Source: Apostichopus japonicus (taxonomy: Eukaryota; Echinodermata; Holothuroidea; Aspidochirotida; Stichopodidae). From it: a stretch of DNA of 64,000 nt. Positions 1 to 56,166 of this stretch are shown in pieces. Each line of letters starts with the position of its first letter. The stretch's first letter is position 1. Location: the NCBI RefSeq assembly GCF_037975245.1, contig NC_092576.1:13179611-13243610 (forward strand), given 5' to 3'. Position numbers and translations under genes: made by a program. The notes below the pieces were generated by a model, which searched no databases, was not told the origin of the DNA, and was given only the letters and a program-made list of their open reading frames with translations.

Positions 1-169
1 GCAAACAAATTATATTTCCGACTGAACATGATCACGTTTATGTAATATCACGCCACTAATTCATGATATGAACATTTCGCTGAAACTAACTGCAATAGCG
101 CATACTGTCCAGACGTTCACATTATTGTAGGCCTACTTTCATTTAGGAAGTGGCAATATCGGGGCAGCC
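1..169. other. unassigned leading sequence
   Basis: AT-rich sequence with no coding exon, splice-flanked frame or repeat that I recognise. Confidence 0.4.
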
Positions 170-1345
170 ATCCCCTGCAACCACCAAGGTTTTCACAATG
201 TGACCTCAAATGACCGTTGATCCCTACCAACGACTACAGGGTAATTGTAATCAATGTGGAAAACATACACATCAAATATGAGTTATGTCCAAGCTACTCT
301 TCTTGAGAAGTTGTTTTTACAAGGTTTTAACTATTTAACCTCTGGTGACTTCAAGTGACTTTTGACCTCCACAAAAAACAACAGGCTTCTTAAATATAAC
401 GTGTAACAACTACATTATAAATATTACATTGGTCCATGATTCCTTCCTTGAGGTATCGTGTTTACAATTTTTTTCACAATTGAATCCCTGATGACCCCAA
501 ATTACCTTCAGCCTCCCTGAAAACTATAGGCTAATTTAACGTAATATGGTAATCAAAATAGACCTAATTCAATTTCACACTATTCATATTCCGGGCACCA
601 AAATGGACAATTATTGTCTTCTTTTTGTTTTACAAGGTTTTCACAATGTGACCTCAAATGATTGTTGATCTCTACCAACGACTGCATGGTTCGTGTACTC
701 AATATGGAATACATACACACCAAACACAAGTTATGTCCAAGCTTCCCTTCTTGAGATATCGGGTTTACAAGTTTCTCACAATTTGACCCCTGGTGACCCT
801 AAATCAGATTTGTTCTCCACCAAAACGAAAGTCTACTTCTATTTAATGTTGTACTCCCACACACCTAAATATGATACTGGTCAAGCTTCTCTTGTAGAGC
901 TATCGTGTTATCAAGGTTTTCACAATTTGACCCTTAGTGACCATTGACCTCTACTAAAAACAATATGGAAATTAAATTTAACATGTCACAATAAGATATT
1001 AAATATGAGATTGACTGAAGCTTACCTTCTTGAGCTACGTGTTTACAAGGTTTTCTCAATATGATCCTTGTTGACCCCAAATGACCTTTGCCATCCCCAA
1101 GAAACAATAGGCTATACTTCTACTTAATGTGGTAATTTTACAAACGAAACATGAGATATGCCCAAGCTTCGCTTCTTGAGACATCGTTTTTACAAAGTTT
1201 TAACAATTTGACCTCGGTGACCCCAAATAACCTTTAACTACATACAAAGACAAAAGCCTTCTTCATCTTGATATGATACTTCCACACGCCAAATATTAGA
1301 TTGTTCCAAGCTCCTCTTCTTGAGATATCGTGTTGTGAACAAGGT
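170..1345. repeat. diverged tandem repeat, about 125-150 bp units
   Basis: About eight degenerate units each carry the ordered landmarks TTCTTGAGATATCG, TTTACAAGGTTTTCACAA, TTGACCTC..GTGACCCC, AAATGACC and a stretch near ATGTGGTA..CACACACC. Landmarks recur near 300, 440, 620, 750, 890, 1035, 1175 and 1315. Small open frames here are chance products. A related single copy lies at about 39165-39330 inside a NUP62 intron, so the unit is also dispersed. Confidence 0.75.
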
Positions 1346-1347
1346 AT

Positions 1348-1366
1348 CACACACACACACACACAT
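1348..1366. repeat. (CA)n microsatellite
   Basis: Short uninterrupted CA run, followed by related ATGCAACCATGCACAC. Confidence 0.8.
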
Positions 1367-1860
1367 GCAACCATGCACACTAAAAGAGGAACCAAAACTA
1401 TATCGTATTCTATCGTGCATTGAAACAAATGTGATTTATTCTTGAAGCTCATTAATATGCATTCTATTATAAATACGACATGACGTATTACTGTCGCTTT
1501 TGGTACTATTGTGTAATAAATAATCATACAATGACAACGATACATATTTTTGCAAAATTTTGGCCACTTCAAAGACATTATTGCTACGGAAGCGTATAAT
1601 ATTTAGAGGGAGAGAAAGAGAGGGTGGGGTGGGGGGGGGGTGAGTGGTGATGTCTGCGACTGTCATTACATTGGAGAGTACGTAAACCATAGATGGCATC
1701 GGGTTAGGGTGAGCAATTTGTTATATTTGGCACATCTAAATACCCGGATGTGGTACTCTCTGACTTAATCCCCATCCCACCGAATTGCGGACGCCCGTGT
1801 CTATAATCAAGAATTGTTATTATTTATAATTTATTATTTATAACTATTTAATTTTACCAG

Positions 1861-1986
1861 GTTTGGAATGCTATCTTTGTGAAGGGGTAAGAAATTGTTC
1901 CTTGCCATTGAATCAACTAACTACCACTGCATGTAGCGATGGCTTAGTTTGTTCGGTAGTCAACGTCACGGTAATCAGCGGATCGG
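1861..1986 (+). CDS. exon: first half of LU domain
   Basis: The acceptor TTTTACCAG precedes a frame starting LECYLCEG, the classic Ly6/uPAR opening (L-x-C-Y-x-C). Cysteines 1-5 of the domain are here, with an N-glycosylation site (NVT). The donor G|GTGAGT leaves phase 1, which joins the next exon as a glycine codon. Confidence 0.8.
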
Positions 1987-4900
1987 GTGAGTTTGCACAT
2001 ATCCAATATTGTCTGAGTCATACTATATCATCATTTCTCAGTTAAAGGATTGGTTCAGGTGTCTAACATGTCTAACTTGTATGAAAGAGCTTAAAAAGAC
2101 AAACAGAATAGTGAAGAAACTACCATGATAGCATTCTCTGTAAAGGAGATATCACACTTTGAAGATTTCAAAATTTCTTTGCAAATGACTGGTGTAGAAA
2201 GACTAACTATGAGGGTGTGATGTCACATCCTCACTTCCTTAACATGTGTCAATATATTTCATTAAAAAATAACAACATTTTTTGTCAAAAATCTAAAAAA
2301 ATATAATCAAACATTCTTCAGATGTTAATCTCAAATACTTCCCTTGACACATATGAGAACTCCTGACGTATCTTTTGGTTGTAAGTCATAAAATCTTACA
2401 AAATATTTTAATAAAATAACAAAGACTTTTCAGGACTGTGAGAATATGACGTCACAGCTAGTCTGATTTCAGCAGTTTCTACACAATCAGATAGAACTTA
2501 CAACTTGAATATCTCCTAAACGGAAAAAGATATTTGAATAATTTCTTCACTATTGTTTTTTTTTATTGTCTTCTTTCATATAAGATAAACATTTGTGACA
2601 CCTGAACTAGTCCTTTAAGCGTGAGTTCAGGCCTACATTTCGTTTTTGAATTAATTTGTTTTGGTTCTCAACCTTTTACTTATCTCGATGTATAGCAAAC
2701 AGATTAGGGAGGTTTGAAAATACAGTGGAGGAGAACCTTTTGAAAAATGCGGATAAATATTTATTGCCCTTGACACCCGATACACACAGAGTACACAGTT
2801 ACAACTGTAAATTGTAAAGTTTTTTACCACAGTAAAAACTGGATCGTGCTATAAATCGGTAGTATATGTGTTATAAGGATTACAGTAAGAACTGAGGATA
2901 TGTGTAATTCCAACAAATCAAGTTGTTGTTTTTTTAAAATTATTATTAAGATTACACATATCCTCAGTTCTTACTATAATCCTTGTAGCACATGCTACCG
3001 ATCTATCAGATTTATCAGCACGTTCCAGTTCTTTTCTGTGGTACAAAACTTTAAGATTTACAGTAGTTACTGTAATCTCTGCGTGAATCGGCTGTCCATG
3101 AAGGAAAACATTTTACCTTTAGTTGCCTACCCACATTTGCTCATTATAAAATGTACTTCTTGGCATGCGACCATTCTCGTGTGACCAGAAGACTGTTCTA
3201 TAAAATTGACAGGTGAACTGTTATACTACCAATTGAACACTGCTTTTTAATCCATAAACAAGTGCATTTCTTGTTTGTTAACTATGTAAGTTTTAGTCAT
3301 TGAGTTTACGCTGAATATTCATACTCGTATGCATACGCCACATATGAATATACATACGCGTATGCAGACGCCACCTTTTTTTAATATAACATTATTAGTA
3401 CATGATCGTATTTGTTTTGATGCACATCGTACGTTTGTAGTACATGATCCTATATGTTTAGAACATGATCGTATACTTTAAGTACACGATCGTAGATGTT
3501 TGGTACATGATCGTAAGTTTTCAGTACATGATCGTGTATTTCTAGTACATGATCGTAAGTTTTCAGTACATGATCGTATAAAATTAGATAATCATTAACA
3601 TCATCATATGTCGTGGTCCTTTTCGCGTTCCATAGTAAAGGTTGTGTAACAGGGGAGAACTATGTCCTCCGTAAAGTTGTTACTTTCGTTTATCTACAGG
3701 CTTCACTATGCAAGATAAATACTTATTACGCGGCTGTATATTTCCTATCAAAGAAGATAACTGCCTTAATTCAACTGATGTCCTAAACCAATACGTTCCA
3801 ACATTGGTCCCTAATATCAGTCAGATTTCATTGGACTCGGAATCATTTGTTTGTTTTTGTGGCACAAATCTCTGCAATGAGCAATTAACACCGGTTAGTT
3901 TAAGTAAGTACATTTTCGATACCTTAACTAAAACAAACGATAGTTAATATAGTAGTAGTAGTAGTAGTAAGTTGAGTCTCGTCTATCCGACATGCTCAGT
4001 GATTAACCTCCGCCAGGTATCACGATCTTGTGCAAGGTTTATTGCTTCCTCGAAATTGTTAATGTTAACGTCCTTAAATTGCGACTTTATTTTCCCAAGC
4101 AAGGTAGTCACGGGCCTTCCTACTGGTTAAGCAGTATGTCTCAATGCTTCTCTTAAAGCAACCTTTGCTGGAGCGTCCTCTTGAAGTCTTGCTACATGAC
4201 TGAAAAATCTCAATCTTCTATGTGCAGCTATGGATGACCAAGTTGTTTGGTTGGTGATTGGTTGTAGAGCTCATTGTTTGATAACCAATTGTTATTGGTC
4301 CATCTAATGTTGAGAATATTACGAAGTAGTCTCCTTTGAAAAGTGCCAATATGCATACTGTTAAATGACAATGACAACAAGTTTATTTTTAGCACATACA
4401 ACATATTTACAATCAGTGGCGTAGGAAGGTACTTTTGAGTGGGGGGCTGAAGACTGATGGCCGGCCTGGGGGAGGGGTCTAAGGATTTTTTTGCATTTCC
4501 AGGTGGCCTCAGATGCAATTTGGTGCAATATAGCACACTTCAACACCCACTCCATTTTTTAAACTTAATTTTGTATTTTCACCTGGCCTTAGATGCAATT
4601 TGGTGCTCCAAATGAGATTTTTTTCTCATTTGGAAATGAAAAAGGGGTTTTCTGACTTGCGAAGCGGGGGGGGGCGGAATGATACTTCCGCCCCTCCACA
4701 TTTTTCACTGGGGGGCTGGCGCCCCCCAGCCCCCCCGGTTCCTACGCCCTTGTTTACAATATTTACAGTAAATGAACTTGTAAACAAGTTCAACAGGAAA
4801 AAAGAAGATGTTCCAGAAAGGGAGGAAAAAAGAAGTAGAAAACTTATAAATGTTTTCCTCCGAATGATTCAAATTTCATAATAGTTTACAACTTAAGGTA

Positions 4901-7900
4901 CTAAAGCAAGGTTCATGTTATATTTGTAATGAAAGAAAATCATAATCAAAATTCAATACATTGTGACTTGGAAATAGAGAAAGTAAGTTTGCTTTGTAAT
5001 TGTATTTAAATGATGAAAGGGTTTTACTGTGATTAATACTTAAATCAATGCATTCCAAATAGTAACACCAGAGTAGGAGATACACAGCTGTTTTTTTTTT
5101 GTCCTTCTAGTTCTAATTTTTGGCAAACGAAAGTTTCCACAGTGTCTTTTATTATAGCTATTTGTTGATATGGTAAACTAATTTTGAATATCAGTATTTA
5201 TGAAATCAGTATTTTGGAAATCAGTATTTATGAGCAAAAACGCACAATTGTCAAATTCTGGATCTTGAAACTGTATTCTCTTTGAAGTTAATATTGTCGA
5301 TTCAGATGGCCTCATACCACTGACAGAACTCATGGTTCTAAATATAAGCAAGAACCTACACCATATAGGACGAAACTGTTTACCTTTCAGCAAAATTGAA
5401 AGTCATTTTGATGTATCTTTCTCAATTATATATATCTTTGTTTCTTATAATTCTTGTACCATAATGCATGGTGTGAACTGTTCTCCTGAAAGAGAGACAG
5501 GTTGGTTGCGAGGGTTAAAGTTTCTGATTAACAAAGTTTATCGATCCGTTGGGTAATCGCGAATGTTCCGAGAAGTTGGGTGTATGTTTGACTTCACCCT
5601 ATACACACAGAGAACACAGTTACTACTGTAAATCTTAAAAGTTTTGTACCAAAATGAAAACTTGGTCGTGCTCTATAATTCGGTAGCATGTGTTATTAGG
5701 ATTACAGTTAGAACTGAGGATATGTGTAATTACAACAATTGTAGTTGTTGGGGTCTGTTGGGATTACAGATAGCCTCGGTTCTTACTGTAAACCTAATAG
5801 CACATGCTACCGATTTATCAGATTTGTCAGCACAATCCAGTTTTTAGTGGGGTACAAAACTTCATGATTTACAGTAGTTACTGTAATCTCTCTTTGAATC
5901 GGTTGTTGAATTCGGAAAACAAATCCTAGTCAATCTCCTTCCTATCATTAAACTCATTACTGTTACCGATATTTGCATAATTCCTGTCATAACCTGTTTT
6001 TTAAAAAAGGATCTTTGTGATTCTAAATACTTCTCAGATAAGCCCGCTGAAGATCTCGAAACGATATTATCAGGAATCGCTTATGTAAGTCCACTTTCAT
6101 GGGAACAAATCTAATTTCTGATTTGATATTCAGGTTATCTCAACAAAATATGATAGTTTATAGGTACATCGTTTCCCTCATTGCATGCACGTAAATGTTA
6201 TATATAGAGAAAAGGATACCTAATGTTTTTTTATTTTGAAAAATATTCACGTAACGTGTTAGTTATTTTACTTTAACTATCTATTTCCTTGTAGACAAAA
6301 TTCCCATCAACAATGGCTTGTAAACTTTTTCTTGAGTCAGTGACTTGCTGAACACATAGGCTATGTGTAGGCACTGCATTTGAAAAAGGATCAGGTCTCT
6401 AAAACATGCTTATGATACAGGTCTAAAGCAACTAAAATGATCAATGTTGGATACATGCATACTTAATAATAATAAGAGAGATCAATATCAATAAATATCC
6501 TTTATTTTATCGTAACAAGTATTTACTAGACCCACCAAACACCTTGTTATAACAACAACAACAACAAAACATAATTCATAGATGTCAGGGCAATACTATC
6601 TCTGCTCTCAAATTTGAGATGTACCGTAAAGAATAAAATCACTTAATAATTTGACAAAATATTGTTTATTTTTTAGGACACAGGTGGAGACAACAGAACA
6701 GACGAGGAAGTTAAAATGTCAGCAGACGCTGTGCAGGAGGCAACTAGTGATGGCGAGTTTCTGGACGAGGATTCTGACAGGGTCGAATTAACAGTTTCTG
6801 CTTTAGAATCAGTTGTGGGAAGAGGTGTCTCTTCTATCGAGGTGAGAACAAGATTAATGTCCAAACGTTATAAGTATGTGTGTTAACTTTGCAGTACGTT
6901 AATAAGAGAACTGACACTTGACATGTAAATTGTATTCAAATAATATCAATTAAATTGTTTTACATTCTTTTCATCAGGTTACCGAATCAGTGATAAGAGC
7001 AGTCAATAATTTGATTGAAGCAGACGGCGATGTTAAAGATCATGTAATGGCAGTCGGTGGTAGATTAGTTGAAGCCTTGGAGAAACAACTCAGAAATTTT
7101 CAACAGAACGAAGGCAACTTTTCTCAGATTTATGGGAACATTGGCGTGGTCTCGATAAACGTTGTCCCGAGCAATGTCGGTGGCAGCCTAACTTTTGCTC
7201 ACGTACTCGAAGATGGTAGTAGGCGAAACGTTACCGGAGGCCTTAAAGGTGGAACAAATGAGATATACGGAGATGCCAGAGCAAGTGATCACATCAATAT
7301 CAGTACCAGCGAAGGTCCTCAAGTTACTTGATGGTAATACTTACTATTATCATTCCATTCTGACTAACAAAAATGACAAGTTCCTACCTAGACATGCTTA
7401 TATTTTGTCCTAAAATTTGAAATAAATTGAAACTTTCTTATTGGTAGAGTCTTTGATTCTATTATCTCAGCTTTACAAATGTTGTTCACGAGACTGACAC
7501 TAGAGCAATACAGTATAAAATACTTCACTTACGTTTTATTTTCTAAGGAAAAAATGGATATCACATTGTATATTAAGTAATATAATGATACGTGTTTTTT
7601 TTTTCAGGGATAACCACAGCTGAAAAATGTTAGTTAATTCGTTCTAGTAACTTTCACTTCAAGTTACTATCAGAAGGTTGTTACGTGTATTACATCTCAC
7701 AAATGGTATATGAAAATGAGTAACTCTGAGTCCAGTCCTAATGTTTATAACTCATGTAATAATCGAGTAAACAGAATTCGTTTTGATAACATTTTATAAA
7801 TGTAGGCAGAATTCATTTTATCTTTTAAATAGGTACAGGTGTGGAAGTTCCGATAAGCTTCATTATATATGATTCCGATACTCTATTTACCCCATCGAAG

Positions 7901-10900
7901 CCGACCAGGCGGAAGAGGGCAACTGAGAGGATAGTCAGTCACATCATATCAACCATTCAAGATGACGATCATGATAAAGATGACGATGAAGATAATGGAG
8001 ATCCAGTAGAATATCCAATCATATCGCAATTTTTCATATTGGAGGTAATAAATAAAGAGCTTTTGTGATACTCTTACATGTTAACTCGTGTTTATTTATT
8101 TTCACTCATAATAGTTTGTAATTGTTTTAAGATAATTTTGTAATTCATAGAAGTTTTGAGACATACAGGTGCTAAGCCTGCATGCTAAACTGTAAGTCCT
8201 TTTGTAGGTATATAATAAGTACATTAACGATAAGCATTTTCTATACATTTCGCTTTTCCGAACTATTTTAATATCTAGTACTACCTTCCTTTTAATAAAA
8301 GAAACTCCAATCAGAACTAACCTTGAATGACGATTTTTTAAATTTTTTTTTACAGAATCTTAACGAATCAGAAGAAAAACTGGACAGCTCTTGTGTCGTC
8401 TGGTTATATAACGAAGACACTGATGAAGGATTTTGGTCCGATGAAAGCTGCAAAATGTTATCGGACGATTCAGATCTTACCGTGTGTTCATGTAAACACA
8501 TTGGAAGTTTTGCAGTGTTAATTGTAAGTCACAAACTTCAAAGAAATTTGTAAATAATCATAGCAAAAACGTCAGTATAATTTAGACAACGGGAATCCTA
8601 CTCTTTCTAAGACAGGGTTCTATATTCTGTTGATATTGGAAATGATGAATATTGTCTGAACTTTCGTCGTTACATCTTCGCTTCGCTGTTATTCATCATC
8701 AACACTGAATCCCTATATCATTTGTGAAGAAATTATTAATAATGATTTGACATCTTGTTACTTCCAAGAGAATCTTACCGTAGCCAATTGACATGTATCA
8801 TATAAAGGAAAAAAAACACAAAATAAAGCTCATATCAGCTTGAAAAAATTGTAGTGCTCTTTTAGCATTGTATGTATGGCGTATGCCTTACTGGAATGAA
8901 TCGTGCTATAAAATGGTTTTGCATGCATGTACTCTTAGGATTACAGTAAGAACTGAGGATATGTGTAATTCCAACAAATACCTTTTGATGCATTTGTTGG
9001 GATAACATACATCCTCAGTTCTTACTGTAATCCTAATAGCACATGCTATGCTACCGATTTATCAGATTTGTCAGCACGATCCAGTTTTTACCGCGGTACG
9101 ATTTTTTTTAAGATTTACGGTAGTTTCTGTAATCTCTTTGTGAATCGGGTGCTAATGTCTATGTAAGTGAGTGTTATTTCATTTTGAAGGCTTGGATGAG
9201 AAACTTGTCCACACCTTTGTGAATCGATTGGGCACTAGTTTCAATTGTGGTGCCTAGATATCGCTTACTATTAATACTACAGAGACTCACCATTATTGAG
9301 AGGATATCTCTAGAAATCTTATCTCATAGAAATGAATGGTAGCCCACAGCATCACAAGGGTGAATCATGTGTTGTTTAAATGTGATGGTAGAATGATCAA
9401 TCTGCTAGTAATATCAGACCTACTTCCCTCGTCTGTAATCAATAAATGTTGAGTTATATTATTATTAAGATAAACGTAACCTTCGTTCTTTTACAGAGAG
9501 TCGGTCCTCTAGAACCAGAGATTGCTCTCTACTACATAACATTCATTGGATCAATAATATCTGGGATGTGTCTGATTTTCTGCATCGTAGCCTTTCTATC
9601 TATAAAGTAAGTACCGTCATTCTTTATTTATTATATACATTCAAAATTTGATGAATCTATACAGCACAAGATAACCCACACAACCATTACAGAGATACAA
9701 ATTGATAATGAACTAAAATACTGCTTTGATTTTACAAGAAAACAAGAATATAATTCCATTAAAATGCCGATACATGAAAATATCATGATTTCAAAGTCGA
9801 GACATTTTGCTCTGAGTTTAAGTTGTTTACAGTGGTGATTCAAATGGTCACAGTTCGTCTTTCAAGAAGATCCTGCTAGGAACAAGCATCCTGTCTCCCT
9901 GACGTTTATCTAAGATAATTGACAAAGAAACATCGCCATTAAAAATTGCTAAAAGAAGAAAAAAAAGTAACTGGTTGATAATATTGTTTGCTCTTTTTTT
10001 ATTATTATTATTTCAGATCACTTAGATCGAAGCATCCGACTCAAATCCATATCAACCTTTGTTTATCTCTTTTGGGTTTCTATATTGCTTTTCTGGTTGG
10101 TCCTCTCGCTGTAGGGAAGAAACAACACTGTGCCGCGCTCTCCGCGATCATTCAATTCTTCTGTCTGGCTACGTTGGCTTGGATGTCAGCAGAAGCTTTG
10201 AATATGTATTACTTGTTTCTCAAAGCTACGAAAGGGAGCATTCGTTACTTTACACCAATTTCATGCATGGTTGTCTATGGTAAATGTCTGTGTTACTGTC
10301 ACGTATGGAACTATAACAATCGGCGATAGGTGTTTATATGTACTACACGGAAAAGAGTCGTATAGCTCTAACCCAGGGTTGTCCAACGTACGGCCCGCGG
10401 GCCACAGTCCGGCCCGCCGCAGGGTTGAGTCCGGCCCGCCAGAGATGCTATACGGTGCGAAATTTTAGTGAGCAGATTTATTGATAACAATTTGAAGCTA
10501 TATAATCAATCATTCGAACCTTGTGGGTCCAAAAAACTGCATACAGGTCAGTTTGTGTGACACTCTCTCAGCGGAGGAGGGGGGGGGGGCGGCTGAACTT
10601 TATTAATCTGTTTTATCAGGAAGGAAAATAAATCAGTGCGCTCCGCGCAGTGCTCACATTTTGTTGCCTTGGGCTTCTGGCAAAAAAAATCGAAAAATCG
10701 AGTGTAGGGTTCATGCGGCCCCCTCCTTCATCATAATCATTCCATGTGGCCCTCCTCTGCAAAAGGTTGGACAACCCTGCTCTAACCCTTACTTGAACTC
10801 ATAGGTTTAAAAAGTACCGATGCTAGAAGTTCGCATCCTAATTGTGTTTCGGTCAAGCATAACGTTTACCTTCCATTCAACACTGTTTAATCAGGGAGTT

Positions 10901-12763
10901 GTTATGGAAAACAACTCCCTGTTTGAATGCAGTTCTCACCAACTTGTCGCAGAATCAACATAAAACTGGAAGGTTTCGGGAATAATAGGCTCTCACCTTT
11001 CTGTTTGTTTTGTTCGATCTCGTTAATAGATACATCAAACGTTAGACTAAGGTTCAATTCTCCTTTTGGTACTTTCCCGGTGGGGGGGGGGGGTCATTAG
11101 TGAGAAGCTTCTTTGACACATTTGTCCCGACCATACACGAAAATCATTTTACTTAATGTAAAGGTTGATACAACATTGATGAATTTCTCGCAAAAAAAAA
11201 AAAATGAATGGAGTGAATTAGACCCAGAGTATTAGGAAAGTTGCACCCCGAAACTACATATTTTTGTCGTCAATAAGTTCTGAATCATGTTAGCTAGGAA
11301 AGCTGTATATATCTACATACATTCCGTGGTCCAGTGTGTTCATATATATTGTGCTGGCGAGTACATTTCAATTATACATATATAATCTGCTTGATTTGGA
11401 TTTTCATAAAATAACTCCATAAATCACACAGAAACAAAACTTTACGGAAATCACACTCCGCTATTTGTGTATTATTTTGGACAGGTTCATCCTTAACATG
11501 CGCTATCCTGGTAGCTTTCCTTGACCGAAGCACAGATTATGAATCGGCTAACTAGTAAGTAATATATCTTTGGCAAAGAATTAAATTCATTTGTTCATTA
11601 ATCGCATAAAAACACCTTGTTTTAATCCTTGCCAGAGCACACCTGACTGGCCTCACCTGACCGGGACGTAGGCTGATTAACTCGTTTATTAACAGTAGTA
11701 CAAATGCTTGTTTTTTGTTTCTGTTTTTGTTTATATTTTTTGTTCGTTTCAGTGTGATACTTTACAGGATTACAAGTTCGTTCATTAATAGAGCCAATTA
11801 ATTGAATCAATTAAACAGCAAAAAAGAAAAGGCAGAAATACAACACACGAAGAATAACTCGCGTTACAAAACTTGACAAACAATTCCAGTGCAATATATA
11901 TCCCTTAGAGTTAGGATGATCCACAATAGTAACGTAGTAATATGCATTTAGTCTGAAATAACTCAATAGGCAAAGCAAACTATTACTTTGAAAGTTATAT
12001 TTGCATACATCTTGCTATTACGAAACTTGCACTGATGAATGTCTTAGAGCCATTTCCCACTCACATAATCAGAAACATTAATTGCATGTATGTAATGTTG
12101 AGTAAACGTAGTGCAGTATCTACCTCCGTTACATCATACAATAAAATAAAAATTGTGAATATATAATTACAAATGTCAAATTAATACAACGCATGACGCT
12201 TTGCATAATGTTTGTTTTATGTATTTAATACGAAAAATAGCACAAATTTTTATATTCTTTGTTTCCAAAGCTGTTTCATCCATCCTGGGTACGCCCTCTA
12301 TTTCGGATTCCTAGCAGAGGTCTGTGCGATGTTTTTATTCAATTTGATCATATTCGTGATGGTCATCCGGAAAGTCCTCTGTCGTCCAGTGATGGTCAGT
12401 AAAGCCAAGGAACATGCTAAGAGGAATGAAATCATCATAAGAATTCGACATGGTGTTCTCTTCTGGTTCGTTCTCGGCCTCTCGTGGATTTTTGGATTTC
12501 TTGCAGCTGTCGACCAATCAACTCTCATCTTTGACTATCTGTATTGCATATTCATTGCCTTGCAAGGTTTTCTGATGTTTTTGCTACTTTGTGTAGCAAA
12601 TCCTGACTTCAGAAAACGGTTTTCTGTGCAGAAAAGAAGCGAGAGCAGTCGAAGCCTTGGCACATCTAAACTTAGAAGTCCATCGACTGAAAAATCGACA
12701 TCGGAACCCAACCAGAGTGAGATCTCTGGAAATAAGAATATTATCAAAACATCTACTTGTTAA
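1861..12763 (+). CDS. adhesion G protein-coupled receptor with N-terminal LU (three-finger) domain, 5' partial
   Basis: Plasma-membrane receptor of the adhesion GPCR class. Exons read as 1861-1986, 3700-3903, 6038-6084, 6677-6841, 6978-7333, 7833-8044, 8356-8523, 9497-9606, 10017-10279, 11485-11554 and 12271-12763 (stop TAA). All junctions are GT-AG and the phases match, except for one apparent extra base near 7302. About 743 residues are visible: a ten-cysteine LU domain, a short linker, a GAIN domain, a GPS, seven transmembrane helices and a Ser-rich cytoplasmic tail of about 60 residues. Family hallmarks are the four GPS cysteines, SFAVLI after the GPS, LGLSWIFGF in TM6 and ALQGFLMF in TM7. 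The first visible exon is entered in phase 1, so a signal-peptide exon must lie upstream; none was seen in 1-1860. An alternative junction between the LU exon and the linker (3893 to 6010, phase 0) also keeps frame. The LU exons could instead belong to a separate gene, but phase continuity argues against this. Confidence 0.85.
2774..3094. mobile_element. long-TIR MITE, copy A
   Basis: About 150-bp imperfect inverted arms begin CACCCGATACACACAGAG and end ..GTGAATCGGCTG, around an AT-rich loop. The arms contain GGATTACAGTAAGAACTGAG and its inverse. Same family as 5595-5905, 8898-9151 and 16347-16655. It lies in the intron between the two LU exons. Confidence 0.85.
3390..3585. repeat. minisatellite built on AGTACATGATCGTA
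   Basis: About eight degenerate copies of a 24-30 bp unit centred on the near-palindrome TACATGATCGTA, inside the intron between the LU exons. Confidence 0.75.
3700..3903 (+). CDS. exon: second half of LU domain
   Basis: After TTTATCTACAG the frame carries LLRGC and then FVCFCGTNLCNE. The latter is the C-x-C..LCN end signature of three-finger proteins, here with CFC instead of the usual CC. Ten cysteines are present over the two exons. The donor chosen is TTTAA|GTAAGT (phase 1); a weaker one, CCG|GTTAGT at 3893, would leave phase 0. If unspliced the frame stops 14 codons later with no GPI-like hydrophobic tail, so this is not an ordinary GPI-anchored Ly6 protein. Confidence 0.78.
4414..4752. 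mobile_element. nonautonomous hAT-like element
   Basis: The ends are CAGTGGCGTAGGAAGG and GGTTCCTACGCCCTTG (inverted). Both sides are flanked by the exact 8-bp duplication TTTACAAT (4406-4413 and 4753-4760), the size made by hAT transposases. No transposase is encoded. Truncated relatives lie near 28400-28642 and 31570-31822. Confidence 0.9.
5595..5905. mobile_element. long-TIR MITE, copy B
   Basis: Same arms as copy A, beginning CACCCTATACACACAGAGAA and ending TTTGAATCGGTTG. Complete but diverged. Intronic. Confidence 0.85.
6038..7333 (+). CDS. exons: linker and GAIN subdomain A / start of B
   Basis: Exons 6038-6084, 6677-6841 and 6978-7333. The text is helical and acidic (KPAEDLETILSGIAY, then SALESVVGRGVSS, then VIRAVNNLIEADG), followed by NIGVVSINVVPS, GGTNEIYGDARA and SVPAKVLKLLDG. 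This order matches the helical GAIN-A subdomain running into GAIN-B strands. The last exon opens in one frame and must finish in the +1 frame to reach the good donor GATG|GTAATA, because the original frame stops at TGA 7329-7331. One surplus base, probably near 7302, would explain this. Confidence 0.72.
7833..8044 (+). CDS. exon: GAIN subdomain B with RRKR and acidic insert
   Basis: The exon enters in phase 1 and leaves in phase 0. It begins TGVEVPISFIIYDSDTLF, a typical GAIN-B strand pair, and ends YPIISQFFILE. Between them sit R-R-K-R (7907-7918), which fits the furin consensus, and an Asp/Glu run (7961-8002) with 10 acidic residues in 14. Confidence 0.8.
8356..8523 (+). CDS. exon: GPS motif lacking the cleavage nucleophile
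   Basis: This 56-codon exon carries the complete GPS cysteine set (SCVVW, ESCKM, TVCSCKH) and the EGFWSDESC block. It ends C-S-C-K-H-I-G-S-F-A-V-L-I. The family consensus is H-L, cleavage, then T or S followed by x-F-A-V. Here the +1 residue is glycine (codon 8503-8505), so self-cleavage is not expected, although the His general base (8497-8499) remains. Confidence 0.85.
8898..9151. mobile_element. long-TIR MITE, copy C (left end missing)
   Basis: The left arm starts internally at GAATCGTGCTATAAA; the right arm is complete to GAATCGGGTG. It is in the intron after the GPS exon. Confidence 0.8.
9497..12763 (+). CDS. exons: seven-transmembrane domain and C-tail
   Basis: TM1 is in 9497-9606 (LYYITFIGSIISGM). 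TM2-TM4 begin in 10017-10279, with IHINLCLSLL, the TM3 cysteine HCAAL, and LAWMSAEALNMYY. TM4 finishes in 11485-11554. TM5-TM7 lie in 12271-12763, starting with the ECL2 cysteine (YCFIHPG) that pairs with the TM3 cysteine in this class. TM6 has LGLSWIFGF and TM7 has ALQGFLMFLLL. The tail is rich in Ser, Thr and Lys. A 406-bp hAT element lies in the intron after 10279. Confidence 0.92.
10374..10779. mobile_element. nonautonomous hAT element (CAGGGTTGTCCAAC family)
   Basis: The inverted ends are CAGGGTTGTCCAAC and GTTGGACAACCCTG. The exact 8-bp duplication CTCTAACC occurs at 10366-10373 and 10780-10787. The 5' part is a GGCCCGC-rich imperfect repeat. The same family is at 22354-22768, and a truncated copy lies at 52649-52884. 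It sits in a receptor intron. Confidence 0.95.
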
Positions 12764-48600: not shown

Positions 48601-50638
48601 GACTCAGTAATCCCACAAAGAAAACATTTGTCTGCTGGAAATCCCCGCATCGTTTTCTTGCATTCGCGAAAAGTTTATACTCAATGCACAACGTATACAC
48701 TTGACTGTAAAAAAAAACTCTGAAAATCAGTAGAGAAATAACCAATTGTGTACGAAAAGTAAGTTGGTACACCTTTCAAATTTTACGAAAGATCGAGCAA
48801 AAAACTTTCGAAAAATTCACGCGAAACTGGCAAATCGTGCTAAATGCAACTAATGTCATGTAAACAAGGCTCTAGTAACCCAATTATGAATAAAACGTAA
48901 GAACACATCTGGTGTTAAGTGGCGAAAAAGTATTTTCTAGAATTTCCAAAATTACGGAGAACATAATATCCTACCATAGTTTAGTGTATAGCAAATAGCC
49001 TAACCACCTCGTCGGTTACGGATCTCACGTAACTACAAAAACACAACTAATTGTAGGCCTATATTGCGAAGTTTACGTTTTCTACAAGAACATGGAAACA
49101 ATATTAAGCATTTAGTTAATCAAGTCAAGTGGCCTTAAACATGTGATTACAAGGTTTACTTTCATATGTATCATGTGGAATAGATTGTCTTGTTCATGCG
49201 GAGGAGTCAGTTGCCTGTTTTACTTACCTAGCAGTTACGGGGATCATATTTTACCTACTTTTCTTAAACGTCTAAGATAATCATGTCATGTCATTTCCAA
49301 ATTTTCATCAGTTTCGTGACAATTTAAATTAAAAAAGTTGTCAGTATTTTGCATCCACAGCTGCGAATATTTTATCGCCAGACGCGCCAAATTTTCCGGG
49401 GCGTTAACCCCTGGACCCCCACAAGGGGTTCCACCACATGACCCCACCGGGGGACTACCCCACGCCATTATGCTACGCGTGCTAATTGTGTTTGCTGCGC
49501 GAACTCCGGCGGGAAATCGACAGGGTGTTCGCGGGAAATTTTACAATGTTATCCACACTTCCCCCCAACCCTCTGCCTACCCCGCCACAATGCACAAATT
49601 CAATATATCTGTGACCCATTGTTGTACTTGTAATTGCGTAGGCCTAGCCCTACTACCGTACACTTCTGTAGTAATCGCTTCCTAACAACCGACTTTCCTA
49701 ACCTTGGCCTAGCTGGTGAATGCCTTGTAGTCTAACACTCCATATGATCGCGAACTTCAATACACAATGCCAATATTAAGTAGGCCTAGTAATATTAGGC
49801 TTATAACTGCCATACAATGCCTGCGCTATTACAGTAGGGGCTACGCAATTAACGAAGAAATATTTGCTTCGAATATCTCTGTAACAGTTACCGATGAACT
49901 GAAAGAGGAACAAAAATCTGTTTAAAACGCGCGATTCGTCTTTTTCAATGCAACGATCGTCAAAACTAAGCAAATACAACCAAATTCTTGACATACGCGT
50001 TACGAAAAAACGATACGTTCAGCGCTATTTTGAGAATGTACTTCCGCATCAAAAGTGGTGGCGCTCTTTCGGAATTATAATCTGAGCTATATAATCTGAT
50101 TTTCGGCTCTTATTTTGAGGCAACAACACGGGTTACGTTTAAACGTTAACCGTTCGGTTAATAGAAACGGTTAACCGGTTAGTGAATTAACCGGAATGAC
50201 ACAGCCCTAAATTCCTTGAAACTTTTTTTTTGAAAAATGTCTACAATTTTTGCTTTTTAATTGCTATTAAAAGCATTTGACCTTTTAAGATGAAACTAAA
50301 AAGTGTTCCTCCTATTGAAAAACCAAAACGACATCTCTTCTTCTTCTTTAAATAACTTGACGTCTTTCCAAGTTCTGGGGGAAAAAGTCAACGCGGATGC
50401 AGGCATGAACGTGGCGCCCCCAAAAATCGATCGCTTATGGCATCGTCTGTTGGGAGGGAAAAAGAAAACTGCGATTATTACCTTTTCTCCGTTGTGTATT
50501 AGAATTTTATCCCAGTTGTTGACTTCGGACGCCTGCTGCAAGAATATCTTCTCCTGTTCTTCAAGCTCCACCGTCCATTTATTGATGGATTGCTCCAGCT
50601 GTCTGTACGTCATGGTGGATGTTGTCGTCGGCACACTT
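36640..50638 (-). CDS. NUP62: NUP62 coiled-coil exons 6-11
   Basis: Six exons carry the alpha-helical Nsp1_C region. Landmarks: ELEEQEKIFLQQASEVNNWD (exon 6), EKVKADQKR (exon 7), QQRELEDMLIPLEESV (exon 8), MAETVDSQLKRM (exon 9), ILNAHMNSLQWIDQ (exon 10), and KVEDVSRIYELVKRDQERNV (exon 11). In exon 10 the acceptor CCCCAAG|CTT restores the three residues LAQ expected from the family, in preference to the downstream GCTCAG|ATT. Confidence 0.95.
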
Positions 50639-53600
50639 CTGGTGGATTCACAGCAGGTCACAGCAAGTAGCGCAAAAAGAAAAAAAAGAGCACTACATTT
50701 AGAGACAGCCCACCACCACCGTCTCTGTCAAAACAGTCGACAGGGCCTTCAAATATCAAACACGATGCATTTTACCGTTGTTGGGTTTCTACTTCCCATC
50801 GTTCATGATCATAAAATTATTTTTATGTTTTTTCTGGTATCCTGTATATACAATTTACTGCCCTGTTTTTGTATGTCTATGTATATGCAAAATATATTAA
50901 CTGAATTGAACTGAACTAATCTAGGTCTATAAGCCAGACTTCCCCCCCCCCCCCAACCAGAGTACCGGTCGCAAACCAAGACACGAGTCACGAAGCTTTT
51001 CACGGTGAGTGAATCGCGAGCAGGGCGACCGAGATCGCAACATCTTGATTGGAAAGAGATCCTCTCCCAAGGAGAGTGACGGTCAAATTTGTCCCTGTCG
51101 TGAAGTGACTTTAGGTTCCCAACCGTTTGATCAAATGTGTGTGTGTGCTGTTGATGTATTAACGTTCAACGTACAGTGTGATCATCGGCGACCGAAAGTA
51201 CTAATTGGGAGATTTTAAGACCCTACATGTCCAAGGCTGATGTATTAACGTTCAACGTGCAACCAGTTCAGTCACCATACAGTGTGATCATCATCAACGA
51301 CCGGGAGATTTTATTACAATCAAAGTTTATTAAAATTAATGACGATGGCTGGTGACTAGCATTTATGCGCTGGGGTTCTCAATTTGCTACTGGCTTGGTA
51401 ATCCAGCCATCGGCAGTGGTGTTTTTGAAACGAGCAGAGCATTCGGGGTTTAGGTCGGGATAAGCACCCAGTTTCTAACCGAGAGGGAAGAAAATCAAGC
51501 CTTTGGAAACACCTACGCCAAAAGCCCTATCTGTCTCTGGGCGGTTAGCTTACGAAAATCCCAAGATGGGGTCTTCGACAGAAAAAAAGCGTGGGTGTAG
51601 TCTATCTAACGTCCGACACATAATTCATATGTCATATGGAGTATCTAAGCTGTTCAAGAAGAACGGGCCGGTGGAAAATTCTGAGAGTTGGCTGTTTTCA
51701 CTTACCCGGAACTGGTGGCAGTAGATGATGAACCAGTGAGGCCTATGCGAGGAAAAAAATGGAAGAAATGGTTAAAGACAACATCATAAGGTTGGGTTCG
51801 TGGCTTCAGAAATAATCTAGAGGTTTTCATCTTGCATAGGAATTGTGACGATACGGTCGTAAATGTCGGCAACGTATAGAAGGCATCCCGAACTGAATAC
51901 TCGGAGCAACGGCAGACATAAAAAGAGTAAAAAAAAAATCTTTTTTTAAATTAATTAAAAATAAAACAGAGAAAAGGGAAAATATGAAAATAATGTGAAC
52001 AGTCCGCTGATATAGAAAAACCAGAAGAAAGAATTCAGTGTCTAAAAAAAATTCTTACGGTTGTGAAAGAATCCACATGCTATCACGAATCACCTGCTTC
52101 AACCCACTCCTCACTTTCACGTCATCCCCCTCCCCACCTTCACCCATGCTGATGCATTTTCCCCACCACGTCAAGCATATCTGCTTACATGTCTGAATAG
52201 GTTAATACAGTCGCAGACATGAAAAAAAATCACATAATTTGCAGACCATCCTCCCTCCATATATTCTGAGAGGTGATCTGGAATACTTTAATTCATTCCC
52301 CCTTTTTTTTTTCTTTTTTTTTTAACTTTTGGTGACTCACCTCCAAACGATAAGGTCGGTTTCACGGCTGCCGATGTTGTCGTCATGGCAGCCGCCGTGG
52401 TAGATGTGAGCAGTCCTCCCAAGAGGGGATTCCCGACTGACGTAGTCGCAGGCTTACCGAGGGTGAGTCCGCCTAAAAGAAATAAGAAAAAAAAGAGAGA
52501 AGACGAGATTATTTATTACGGCAGTCACTTAGAGAGAGATTAACTTGTTTAAATGCTACGCCATGCCTTGAAGACATAATGCTTTTCACTTCCAGCCTAT
52601 GAGGTGGGAGAGATTAACTTGTTTAAATGCTACTCAATGCCTTTAAGACAGGGTTGTCCAACCTACGGCCCGCGGGCCACAGTGCGGCCCGCCGCAAGGT
52701 CCCGTCCGGCCCGCCAACCTCATGAATTTACAAATGTACTTTTACCCAGGAATTCTTTTTTGATAAATTTCAGAGATCATTATATCTCAATATAAAGATT
52801 GTTTTGATACAGATCAGAAGGCTTGTGAAGTGTCATTTCCTGCAATCTGGGGGTCTTTTGGGCGATTTTTTTTTCTTGCACGCGCTCAATGCCTTTAAGA
52901 CATAATGCTTTTCACTTCCAGCCTATGAGGTGGGAGAGATTAACTTGTTTAAATGCTACTCCATGCCTTGAAGACATTATGCTTTTCACTTCCAGCCTAT
53001 GGGGTGGGAGAGATTAACTTGTTTAAATGCTACTCCATGCCTTGAAGACGTAATGCTTTTCACTTCCAGCCTATGGGGTGGGAGAGATTAACTTGTTTAA
53101 ATGCTACTCCATGCCTTGAAGACGTAATGCTTTTCACTTCCAGCCTATGGGGTGGGCGAGATTAACTTGTTTAAATGCTACTCCATGCCTTTAAGACATG
53201 ATGCTTTTCACTTCCAGGCTATGGGGTGGGAGAGATTAACTTGTTTAAATGCTACTCCATGCCTTGAAGACATGATGCTTTTCACTTCCAGCCTATGGGG
53301 TGAGCAAGATTAACTTGTTTAAATGCTACTCCATGCCTTGAAGACGTAATGCTTTTCACTTCCAGCCTATGGGGTTGGAGAGATTAACTTGTTTAAATGC
53401 TACTCCATGCCTTGAAGACGTAATGCTTTTCACTTCCAGCCGATGGGGTGGGAGAGATTAACTTGTTTAAATGCTACTCCATGCCTTTAAGACGTAATGC
53501 TTTTCACTTCCAGCCTATGGGGTGGGAGAGATTAACTTGTTTAAATGCTACTCCATGCCTTGAAGACATGATGCTTTTCACTTCCAGTCTATGGGGTGAG

Positions 53601-56133
53601 CAAGATTAACTTGTTTAAATGCTACTCCGTGCCTTGAACACGTAATGCTTTTCACTTCCAGCCTATGGGATTGGAGAGATTAACTTGTTTAAATGCTACT
53701 CCATGCCTTGAAGACATAATGCTTTTCACTTCCAGCCTATTGGGTGGGAGAGATTAACTTGTTTAAATGCTACTCAATGCCTTTAATATGTAATGCTTTT
53801 CACTTCCAGCCTAATGGGGTGGGAGAGATTAACTTGTTTAAATGCTACTCCATGCCTTTAAGACATGATGCTTTTCACTTCCAGCCTATGGGGTTGGAGA
53901 GATTAACTTGTTTAAATGCTACTCCATGCCTTTAAGACGTAATGCTTTTCACTTCCAGGCTATAGGGTGGGAGAGATTAACTTGTTTAAATGCTACTCCA
54001 TGCCTTGAAGACTTAATGCTATTCACTTCCAGCCTATGGGGTGGGAGAGATTAACTTGTTTAAATGCTACTCCATGCCTTGAAGACATAATGCTTTTCAC
54101 TTCCAGCCTATGGGGTGGGAGAGATTAAACTTGTTTAAATGCTACTCCATTCCTTGAAGACATGATGCTTTTCACTTCCAGCCTATGGGGTGGGAGAGAT
54201 TAACTTGTTTAAATGCTACTCCATGCCTTGAAGACGTAATGCTTTTCACTTCCAGCCTATGGGGTTGGAGAGATTAACTTGTTTAAATGCTACTCCATGC
54301 ATTGAAGACGTAATGCTTTTCACTTCCAGCCTATGGGGTGGGAGAGATTAACTTGTTTAAATGCTACTCAATGCCTTTAAGACGTAATGCTTTTCACTTC
54401 CAGCCTACTGGGGTGGGAGAGGTTAACTTGTTTAAATGCTACTCCATGCCTTTAAGACATGATGCTTTTCACTTCCAGCCTATGGGGTGGGAGAGATTAA
54501 CTTGTTTAAATGCTACTCCATGCCTTTAAGACGTAATGCTTTTCACTTCCAGCCTACTGGGGTTTATCATTTAGTGTCAACAATAGGTCACTTGCCATCG
54601 ACCGTAGTGGCAAAAGATATTAGCTAGAAAAAGATGTTTCTTTTCGTACGACATCGGATGCCTACATTTCGAGAAATCCTGATATTATCTAAAAAATAGA
54701 TTTTCCCTTCGTCGAAGCCCTCCTTAAGTTCGGGAGTACCGAACCTTCGAGCCTTATAAATCTGCCGACTAACTTGGCTTTACCTTGGCCCCCTCTCACT
54801 CCACAATTTGGGCATTTTTGATTTCTACAATGCGGTATTATCTGGGTGACAGGCAAACTTCATTTTAAAGAATACAGCGTTATCATGCTGTCTAGAAAAT
54901 CTACTCCGTAAATTTATAGACTGGAGACTCAGATTCAGTCTCGATTCACGGTCGAAGGAGTCTCTTCTCTCACCTGTAGTAGAAGAGCCGGCCGGCTGTG
55001 AGGTCGAAGGAAGTGAGAAGCCCGTGGCAGACGAGGCAGGCTTCCCTAGTCCTAAGCTCAGTCCACCTGTGAGTGTGCTGGCAGAGGTAGCCGCTGCTGT
55101 GGTTTGGGCACCCAGCTGGAACCCGCCAGCGCCACCGCCCAGCGACAGTCCCCCGGATGCGGTCGTGGCTGCCGTCATCGTGGTCTTCTTCTGGGGTGCC
55201 GTACCACCCAGTTGAAATCCACCGGTCTGGCCACCGAGCTGGAAACCGGACGAGGCACCGAGCTGAAGCCCCCCTCCTCCTCCGGTGGAAGGAACGGTGG
55301 TGGCAGCAGGGGTGACCTGTGGTGTCCCTAGATTGAAGCCTGCACTAGGGTTGGTAGCAGTGCTGCTCGCTGGCGTTCCAAGCTGAAAGCTGAGCCCGCC
55401 GGCTGGCGGCTTACCGCTGTCGACCGCTGTCGTGGTCTGAGAGCCCAGTTTAAATCCCGACGCCGGAAAACCGCCGCCGGAAGCGTTGGTTGTGCCGGCC
55501 AACGTACTCGCTGCTGTTGCTGCTGAGTGTTTCAAGATTCGATGTAGAGAGGACGGAGAAAGAGAAAAAAAAAGATAAGCAAAAATTTATAGCGAGGCTG
55601 GTAAAAAATCTGTTATTTTTCTTTCTTCCTTTTCGTCATCATCTTAAAGTGCATTGAGCAAATTTATGTTGGATTTCTGTGCTATATAAGACTAGTTGTT
55701 GTCATTATTATTATTATCATCATCATCAACTATTTAGCTGATTGTGCAGGTAAATATATATATATATACAAATATATATATATATATATATATTAATATT
55801 GCAATATAATGTAAAGTGAAAAGCTATGATAAGACTAGCTAAGAGGAGAAGGAAGGTATATTGGTGCAAAAAGGAAAGGAAATGACAGTTTAATAACTGA
55901 AGACTCCACCAAACATAAAACTCCATCAATCTGATCTGTTCAGGACAACACAAATTTGTCCCAATCTTTCATCAAAGTTAGACAGGATACATCATAATAG
56001 GGGTTGCATACTTAATGGTTCTTGCAGTAGTATAATGAAGTGATGATATCATGAACTATTAATATAATCATAATAGTAATACTAGTAATAATATAATAGT
56101 AATTGTAGTAATAATAATGATAATGATAATAAT

Positions 56134-56166
<33 letters not shown>

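Follow-up and report, generated by a model that had tools for sequence, protein, structure and literature searches.

The 64,000-nucleotide stretch of the Apostichopus japonicus genome analysed here (C16:13179611-13243610, referred to below as the window) carries on its plus strand, at 1861-12763, eleven exons that form one chain in the gene model and appear to encode an adhesion G protein-coupled receptor (GPCR) headed by a Ly6/uPAR (LU) domain, which is followed by a GAIN region, a GPS and a seven-transmembrane (7TM) part (Table 1). This layout had been proposed in a first-pass annotation made from the letters of the window, and it was followed up here by domain and structure searches, by gene modelling and by a search for relatives in the whole assembly (671.6 Mb in 35 contigs). 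AG acceptors are present in all eleven exons, and GT donors with matching phases at each of the 10 internal boundaries. The proposal that two exons encode a ten-cysteine LU domain was borne out: both exons are present with phase-1 introns on either side (in the window copy as in its relative A, described below), and the cysteines lie at residues 4, 7, 13, 25, 31, 55, 64, 94, 96 and 101 in a pattern that ends in CN. Direct joining of LU exon 2 to exon 4 would be out of frame in the window, and a short linker exon was the sole phase-bridging candidate found in 2.77 kb at its own splice scores, where control stretches predict 0.07 and 0.20 candidates for the two strands; because the thresholds were derived from this exon itself, the scan is supportive only.

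The GPS and 7TM exons that had been placed downstream of the LU exons were also confirmed. Pfam analysis of the joined window protein identified 7tm_2 at an expectation value (E) of 4e-30 and GPS (PF01825) at 8.5e-11, with the GPS adjoining the first transmembrane helix (TM1) and the 7TM part complete. A PDB search with the receptor part returned adhesion GPCRs, with ADGRL3 (latrophilin-3) in first place at 9.3e-42 over GAIN-B, GPS and 7TM.

Table 1. Exons of the window gene, damage to its fifth exon, and location of the four closest relatives (positions 1 to 64,000 are those of the window).
Feature	Position	Strand	Remarks
LU exon 1	1861..1986	+	Cys 1-5, phase 1/1; homologue in each of A-D
LU exon 2	3700..3903	+	Cys 6-10, CFCGTNLCN, phase 1/1; homologue in each of A-D
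Linker exon 3, 47 nt	6038..6084	+	phase 1/0; connects LU with GAIN-region exons
GAIN-region exon 4	6677..6841	+	probably subdomain A, judged from position
GAIN-region exon 5	6978..7333	+	natural donor 7333; frame broken by 14-bp deletion; weak in-frame donor 7314
14-bp deletion site relative to A	7277..7278	+	stretch also present in B, C, D
TGA reached on straight read-through of exon 5	7329..7331	+	
GAIN subdomain B exon 6	7833..8044	+	contains RRKR site
GPS exon 7	8356..8523	+	CSCKHIGSFAVLI, P+1 = Gly; GPS 8.5e-11; motif identical in A-D
7TM exon 8	9497..9606	+	TM1
7TM exon 9	10017..10279	+	TM2, TM3, start of TM4
7TM exon 10	11485..11554	+	TM4
Last exon 11	12271..12763	+	extracellular loop 2, TM5-TM7, cytoplasmic tail, stop
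Relative A	C16, ~51 kb upstream of window		
Relatives B and C	C16, near 8.51-8.55 Mb		
Relative D	C16, near 4.23-4.24 Mb		

A 7TM query against the genome gave at least 150 scored exon matches, spread over many contigs. From these, the four closest relatives were studied, each of which is located on C16. In all of them the two LU exons are followed, in the order seen in the window and on one strand, by the GAIN-region, GPS and 7TM exons; the linker was found by protein match in A, C and D, and in B by a DNA match of 85% across 106 positions that preserves AG and GT. Relative A, the one of the four with a spliced complete model, comprises 12 exons with GT-AG boundaries throughout and encodes 769 aa without an internal stop, running from signal peptide through LU, GAIN region and GPS to 7TM. 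Its signal exon reads MFTSTAVRIVLPGIVLMTVVSS, and that of B and C reads MFTSTVVRIVLSGVLLIDVVSS. The first part of this model matches the usual form of LU genes described in PMC6600238, in the portion of that review available to us, namely a signal exon and two LU exons with phase-1 flanking introns and with the intron inside the domain placed at the tip of loop 2. Since A-D share the exon order and A gives an uninterrupted model, the LU domain most reasonably belongs to the receptor, and the first-pass proposal of an adhesion GPCR with an N-terminal LU domain is supported, best by these relatives.

With regard to the LU domain itself, all ten cysteines are invariant in an alignment of the five copies (the window copy and A-D). 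The window LU analysed alone matched the Pfam families QVR at 0.0015 (20 bits, curated cut-off 27.3) and UPAR_LY6 at 0.24 (12.3 bits, cut-off 24.8). When matches with E up to 1 were considered, QVR was found in 5/5 LU domains of the family (best 1.5e-5) and UPAR_LY6 in four of them (best 0.02), QVR being the best fit, and neither was matched by any of 10 shuffled window LU sequences (five full shuffles and five with the cysteines fixed). The homology of the window LU to known LU families is thus weak but controlled, unlike the clear homology of the GPS and 7TM parts. A genome-wide scan with PF00021 gave no match, but its control was likewise silent, so that it is uninformative.

Comparison of the relatives also revealed that arrays of EGF exons separate the LU exons from the linker in B, C and D. 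There are 38 EGF matches in B, eight in C (two of them imperfect) and two plus a degenerate third in D, and none in A or the window copy. The repeated unit was identified by Pfam as an EGF domain (2.2e-11). In B, the units form a tandem array at C16:8517790-8525842 and are mostly 218 bp apart, corresponding to an exon and a short intron; 37 of the 38 matches cover almost the full length of the query (one of the 37 contains an internal gap), and the expected acceptor and donor are present at the expected offsets in 36. Among the matches listed in a genome-wide EGF search, identities of 80% or more occurred solely in B, C and D. A further locus (relative E; LU at C16:4.275-4.278 Mb, minus strand, within C16:4268001-4278000) has a pair of LU domains and then nine EGF matches, one of which is split in two; these lie upstream of a 7TM match at 4.258-4.260 Mb and are tied to it by position alone. 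Two other observations concern LU exons near receptor loci. Upstream of D's LU exons, at a distance of about 7 kb, lies a further LU exon pair (C16:4246651, minus strand) that could be a second LU domain of D or part of another gene, and the 7TM match at C2:10580687 has LU exon matches approximately 30-35 kb upstream of it, at C2:10611369 and C2:10616368 (minus strand).

The GPS of the window copy and of A, B, C and D reads CSCKHIGSFAVLI, in which the cleavage site is H-I-G, with Gly at P+1 in 5/5 copies and a conserved stalk. According to the available text of the adhesion-GPCR review PMC13197933, the cleavage tripeptide consists of His, Leu/Ile and Ser/Thr, and the tethered agonist follows TxFxxLM. 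The family therefore retains the His and Ile of the tripeptide and the F and L of the agonist, while Ser/Thr is replaced by Gly, and a cleavable tripeptide was found in none of the five copies. Among more distant loci, the GPS site was recovered with the query used in five, all of which read DRLGSFA(I/V)LI. As Gly replaces the usual Ser/Thr, normal cleavage at the GPS is unlikely, and because this residue is so widely shared, it is unlikely to have arisen by decay. Membership of the adhesion GPCRs would not be affected, since the same review, in its available portion, names uncleaved members of this class and discusses a non-dissociation model.

The window copy itself is damaged in the assembly. 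Relative to A, 14 bp are missing from exon 5 after 7277; this stretch is present in all four relatives and, in A, has AG on either side, and the comparison establishes the frameshifting deletion, as assembled, as a derived feature of the window copy. Without the 14 bp, the reading frame breaks inside GAIN. The in-frame donor of exon 5 at 7314 scores -4.25, whereas the other nine donors score between 1.90 and 6.18; the donor at 7333, which sits in the +1 frame, scores 0.78, better than 7314 yet below the other nine. The first-pass statement that the LU exons splice in frame into the receptor exons therefore does not hold for the window copy, in view of the deletion, the TGA at 7329-7331 and the poor in-frame donor. 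Moreover, a search of window positions 1-1860 and of the 37.4 kb that separate A from the window turned up no relative of the signal exon (the best DNA match had an E of 0.006 over 35 bp and lay on the opposite strand), and homology with A ends 505 bp upstream of LU exon 1, within the first intron of A. Given the deletion and the lack of a signal-exon relative within 37 kb upstream, the window copy should not make a full receptor; with a broken frame and no start exon found in these searches, it does not present as an intact coding gene.

Substitutions were counted in exons 4-11 over 591 compared codons, with two-change codons counted twice. The branch of the window copy (W) has 13 non-synonymous and 9 synonymous changes and the A branch 11 and 8, with three changes unassigned; the ratio of non-synonymous to synonymous rates (dN/dS) between W and A is 0.39, and the neutral expectation derived from the same dN/dS comparison gave p values of 0.018 and 0.021. 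As the W-branch substitutions still look constrained, the damage is probably of recent date, confined to an allele or an artefact, and the window copy could represent a recently formed pseudogene, an allele that has been damaged, or an error of assembly.

Different explanations of the window copy share this evidence. There is roughly an even chance that it arose recently as a tandem duplicate of A, truncated at its 5' end, and is now a pseudogene, which fits the end of homology inside A's first intron, the failure to find a signal exon and the exon-5 frameshift; however, a copy dead since duplication would be predicted to have gathered non-synonymous and synonymous changes at a ratio of about four to one, and the 13 to 9 seen look non-neutral (p ~0.02) and so speak against an old pseudogene. 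The W-branch constraint, with its similarity to the A branch, its dN/dS and its p values, is instead what would be expected if the copy works, the deletion being an assembly fault or a rare allele and the first exon being unrelated to those of A-C or located elsewhere. This explanation is somewhat less probable but deserves serious consideration, as the remaining ten exons are open and spliceable and four weak signal-like exons occur within 21.9 kb upstream, whereas a 14-bp deletion with AG flanks in A is unlike a homopolymer slip, and the loss of homology ~505 bp upstream of LU exon 1 and the lack of a signal-exon relative across the 37.4 kb separating A from the window also argue against it. 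It is improbable that the copy uses the weak donor at 7314 and keeps its frame with an altered GAIN strand: a GT at 7315 stands in the right phase, frame 0 is open up to there, and the frame-0 reading weakly matches GPR128_GAIN_subdom_B (0.059), but the donor score is very low, the ITSISVPAKVLKLLD stretch recognisable in A-D would be lost, and Pfam GAIN is missing for frame 0. By comparison, Pfam GAIN (PF16489) was obtained at 0.0014-0.0081, below cut-off, in 3/3 of the exon-5 +1-frame readings tested (seven were built) and in 0/8 versions with the +1-frame tail shuffled; one such shuffle matched GPR128_GAIN_subdom_B at 0.051, so the frame-0 value means little. Other comparisons of the two frames discriminated poorly. 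The exon-5 tail with exon 6 alone was uninformative in Pfam (nothing for the +1 reading and 0.18 for frame 0, with one of seven shuffles reaching 0.044 for the GPR128 GAIN), codon usage did not discriminate (7.2 vs 6.5), and phmmer with the GAIN part alone found no adhesion GPCR in either exon-5 frame, the +1 reading gaining about 2 bits after GPS and TM1 were added.

The association of the LU exons with the receptor can also be questioned, since they might form a separate Ly6-type gene just upstream. LU arrays with no 7TM nearby among the matches listed do occur at C2:4.90-4.95 Mb, where a dense array of at least 12 very similar two-exon LU domains (C2:4900750-4952347) represents either a many-LU protein or a Ly6 gene cluster. 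Behind LU exon 2 of the window, moreover, lies one candidate terminal exon resembling a glycosylphosphatidylinositol (GPI) tail (5391-5461), compared with 0.10 to 0.26 such candidates expected by chance in the scanned length, and this stretch is 98% identical in A. Nevertheless, in all four relatives the LU exons still precede the receptor exons and the linker is kept with its splice signals, exon 2 would join exon 4 out of frame if the linker were left out, the A model is complete and open, and the EGF exons of B, C and D lie between LU and linker. A separate gene, rejected on synteny and phase despite the GPI-tail-like candidate, is therefore very improbable. In addition to that candidate, several results weigh against an LU-headed adhesion GPCR that is not cleaved. 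The profile scan for an LU domain, which the first-pass annotation had named as a check, did produce matches that vanished on shuffling, but all of them for the window LU fall under the curated cut-offs of both QVR and UPAR_LY6; in the joined window protein the LU scores only QVR at 0.48, and in full-length A the LU families reach only 0.45 and 0.75. A PDB search with the window LU as a single sequence gave no match, and one with a five-row LU profile gave no Ly6 structure and three salivary-protein chains at 0.19-0.20. Pfam GAIN was seen solely with the window +1-frame readings, being missing from the full A protein at E up to 1, and exon 5 of C by itself had no Pfam match. The signal exon of D was not found within 3.3 kb, and the loss-of-cleavage reading depends on one residue.

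Several other features were observed in the window. A hairpin-forming repeat resembling a miniature inverted-repeat transposable element is present in three copies in three introns of the gene (2866-2995, 5684-5809 and 8925-9048), and a repeat with 21-bp spacing around TACATGATCGTA lies at 3389-3598, inside the intron that splits the LU domain. A diverged repeat of about 145 bp is located at 267-1334, directly upstream of the LU exons and near the end of homology with A. At 50299-56870 on the minus strand, exons resembling an FG-repeat nucleoporin, probably Nup62-like, were identified (Nsp1_C 2.7e-16 at 50299-50727 and Nucleoporin_FG2 0.004 at 56514-56870).

Taken as a whole, the data are explained with good confidence by a damaged window copy of a local, LU-headed adhesion-GPCR family, whose unbroken members would bind a ligand through the LU domain and remain uncleaved. 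The family layout would consist of a signal peptide, an LU domain, 0 to 38 EGF exons, the GAIN/GPS region and the 7TM part. The LU head is likely to be the ligand-binding part and the EGF units a spacer, so that in unbroken members the head, with EGF spacers where present, might bind a surface or soluble protein; with the GAIN domain uncleaved, the receptor could signal through exposure of its tethered agonist while the N-terminal part is not shed. The LU exon pair may have been acquired through phase-1 exon shuffling. More tentatively, and with somewhat more doubt than confidence, these loci could represent a lineage in which expandable EGF arrays set how far the head stands from the membrane, cleavage was abandoned and the agonist kept, with non-shedding surface sensors diversifying by tandem duplication. 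The shared Gly together with the kept agonist core would make this a natural family for testing adhesion-GPCR signalling without cleavage.

To date, LU-GPCRs have been described in two papers on three-finger proteins of starfish and annotated as adhesion GPCRs (PMC9410279 and PMC11595613, in their available parts), and according to the former, the NCBI annotator assigns LyAr2 and LyAp2 to this class. Judged from these descriptions only, LyAr2 (Asterias rubens XP_033635706), LyAp2 (Acanthaster planci) and XP_033635539.1 resemble the window family in combining LU with a GPCR. The first-pass remark that no adhesion GPCR with an LU domain was known concerned vertebrates; the architecture has a precedent in the starfish receptors already in print. 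The available text of the starfish papers contains no mention of EGF arrays, the GPS residue or exon structure for those receptors, that of PMC13197933 and PMC12716839 does not mention uPAR, Ly6 or three-finger, and a literature search found no paper on LU-EGF-GAIN receptors. The LU-adhesion-GPCR architecture is thus already known from starfish, and no description in print was found for the EGF arrays, for the Gly that the members share at P+1 or for the family's exon structure.

Among other known systems, the EGF-type adhesion GPCRs (ADGRE/CD97) have EGF exons ahead of the GAIN region and 7TM, as do B, C and D, and differ in this respect from A and the window copy, which have no EGF match. 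The ADGRE/CD97 subfamily is not known to contain an LU domain. ADGRL3, the best PDB match, has HL-T at its GPS, where the window family has HI-G, and it is likewise not known to carry an LU domain. The activin/TGF-beta receptors resemble the window family in being membrane receptors with an LU domain on the extracellular side (PMC6600238, available part), but they are kinases, whereas the window family has a 7TM part and an LU domain closest to Pfam QVR. In the available text of that 2019 review, LU domains are called a proto-module at most. Most descriptions of them concern modules that stand singly, occur as repeats, carry a GPI anchor or are linked to a kinase, whereas here an LU domain appears to head a multiplying adhesion-GPCR family, the exon structure of which suggests a route by which the two could have been joined.

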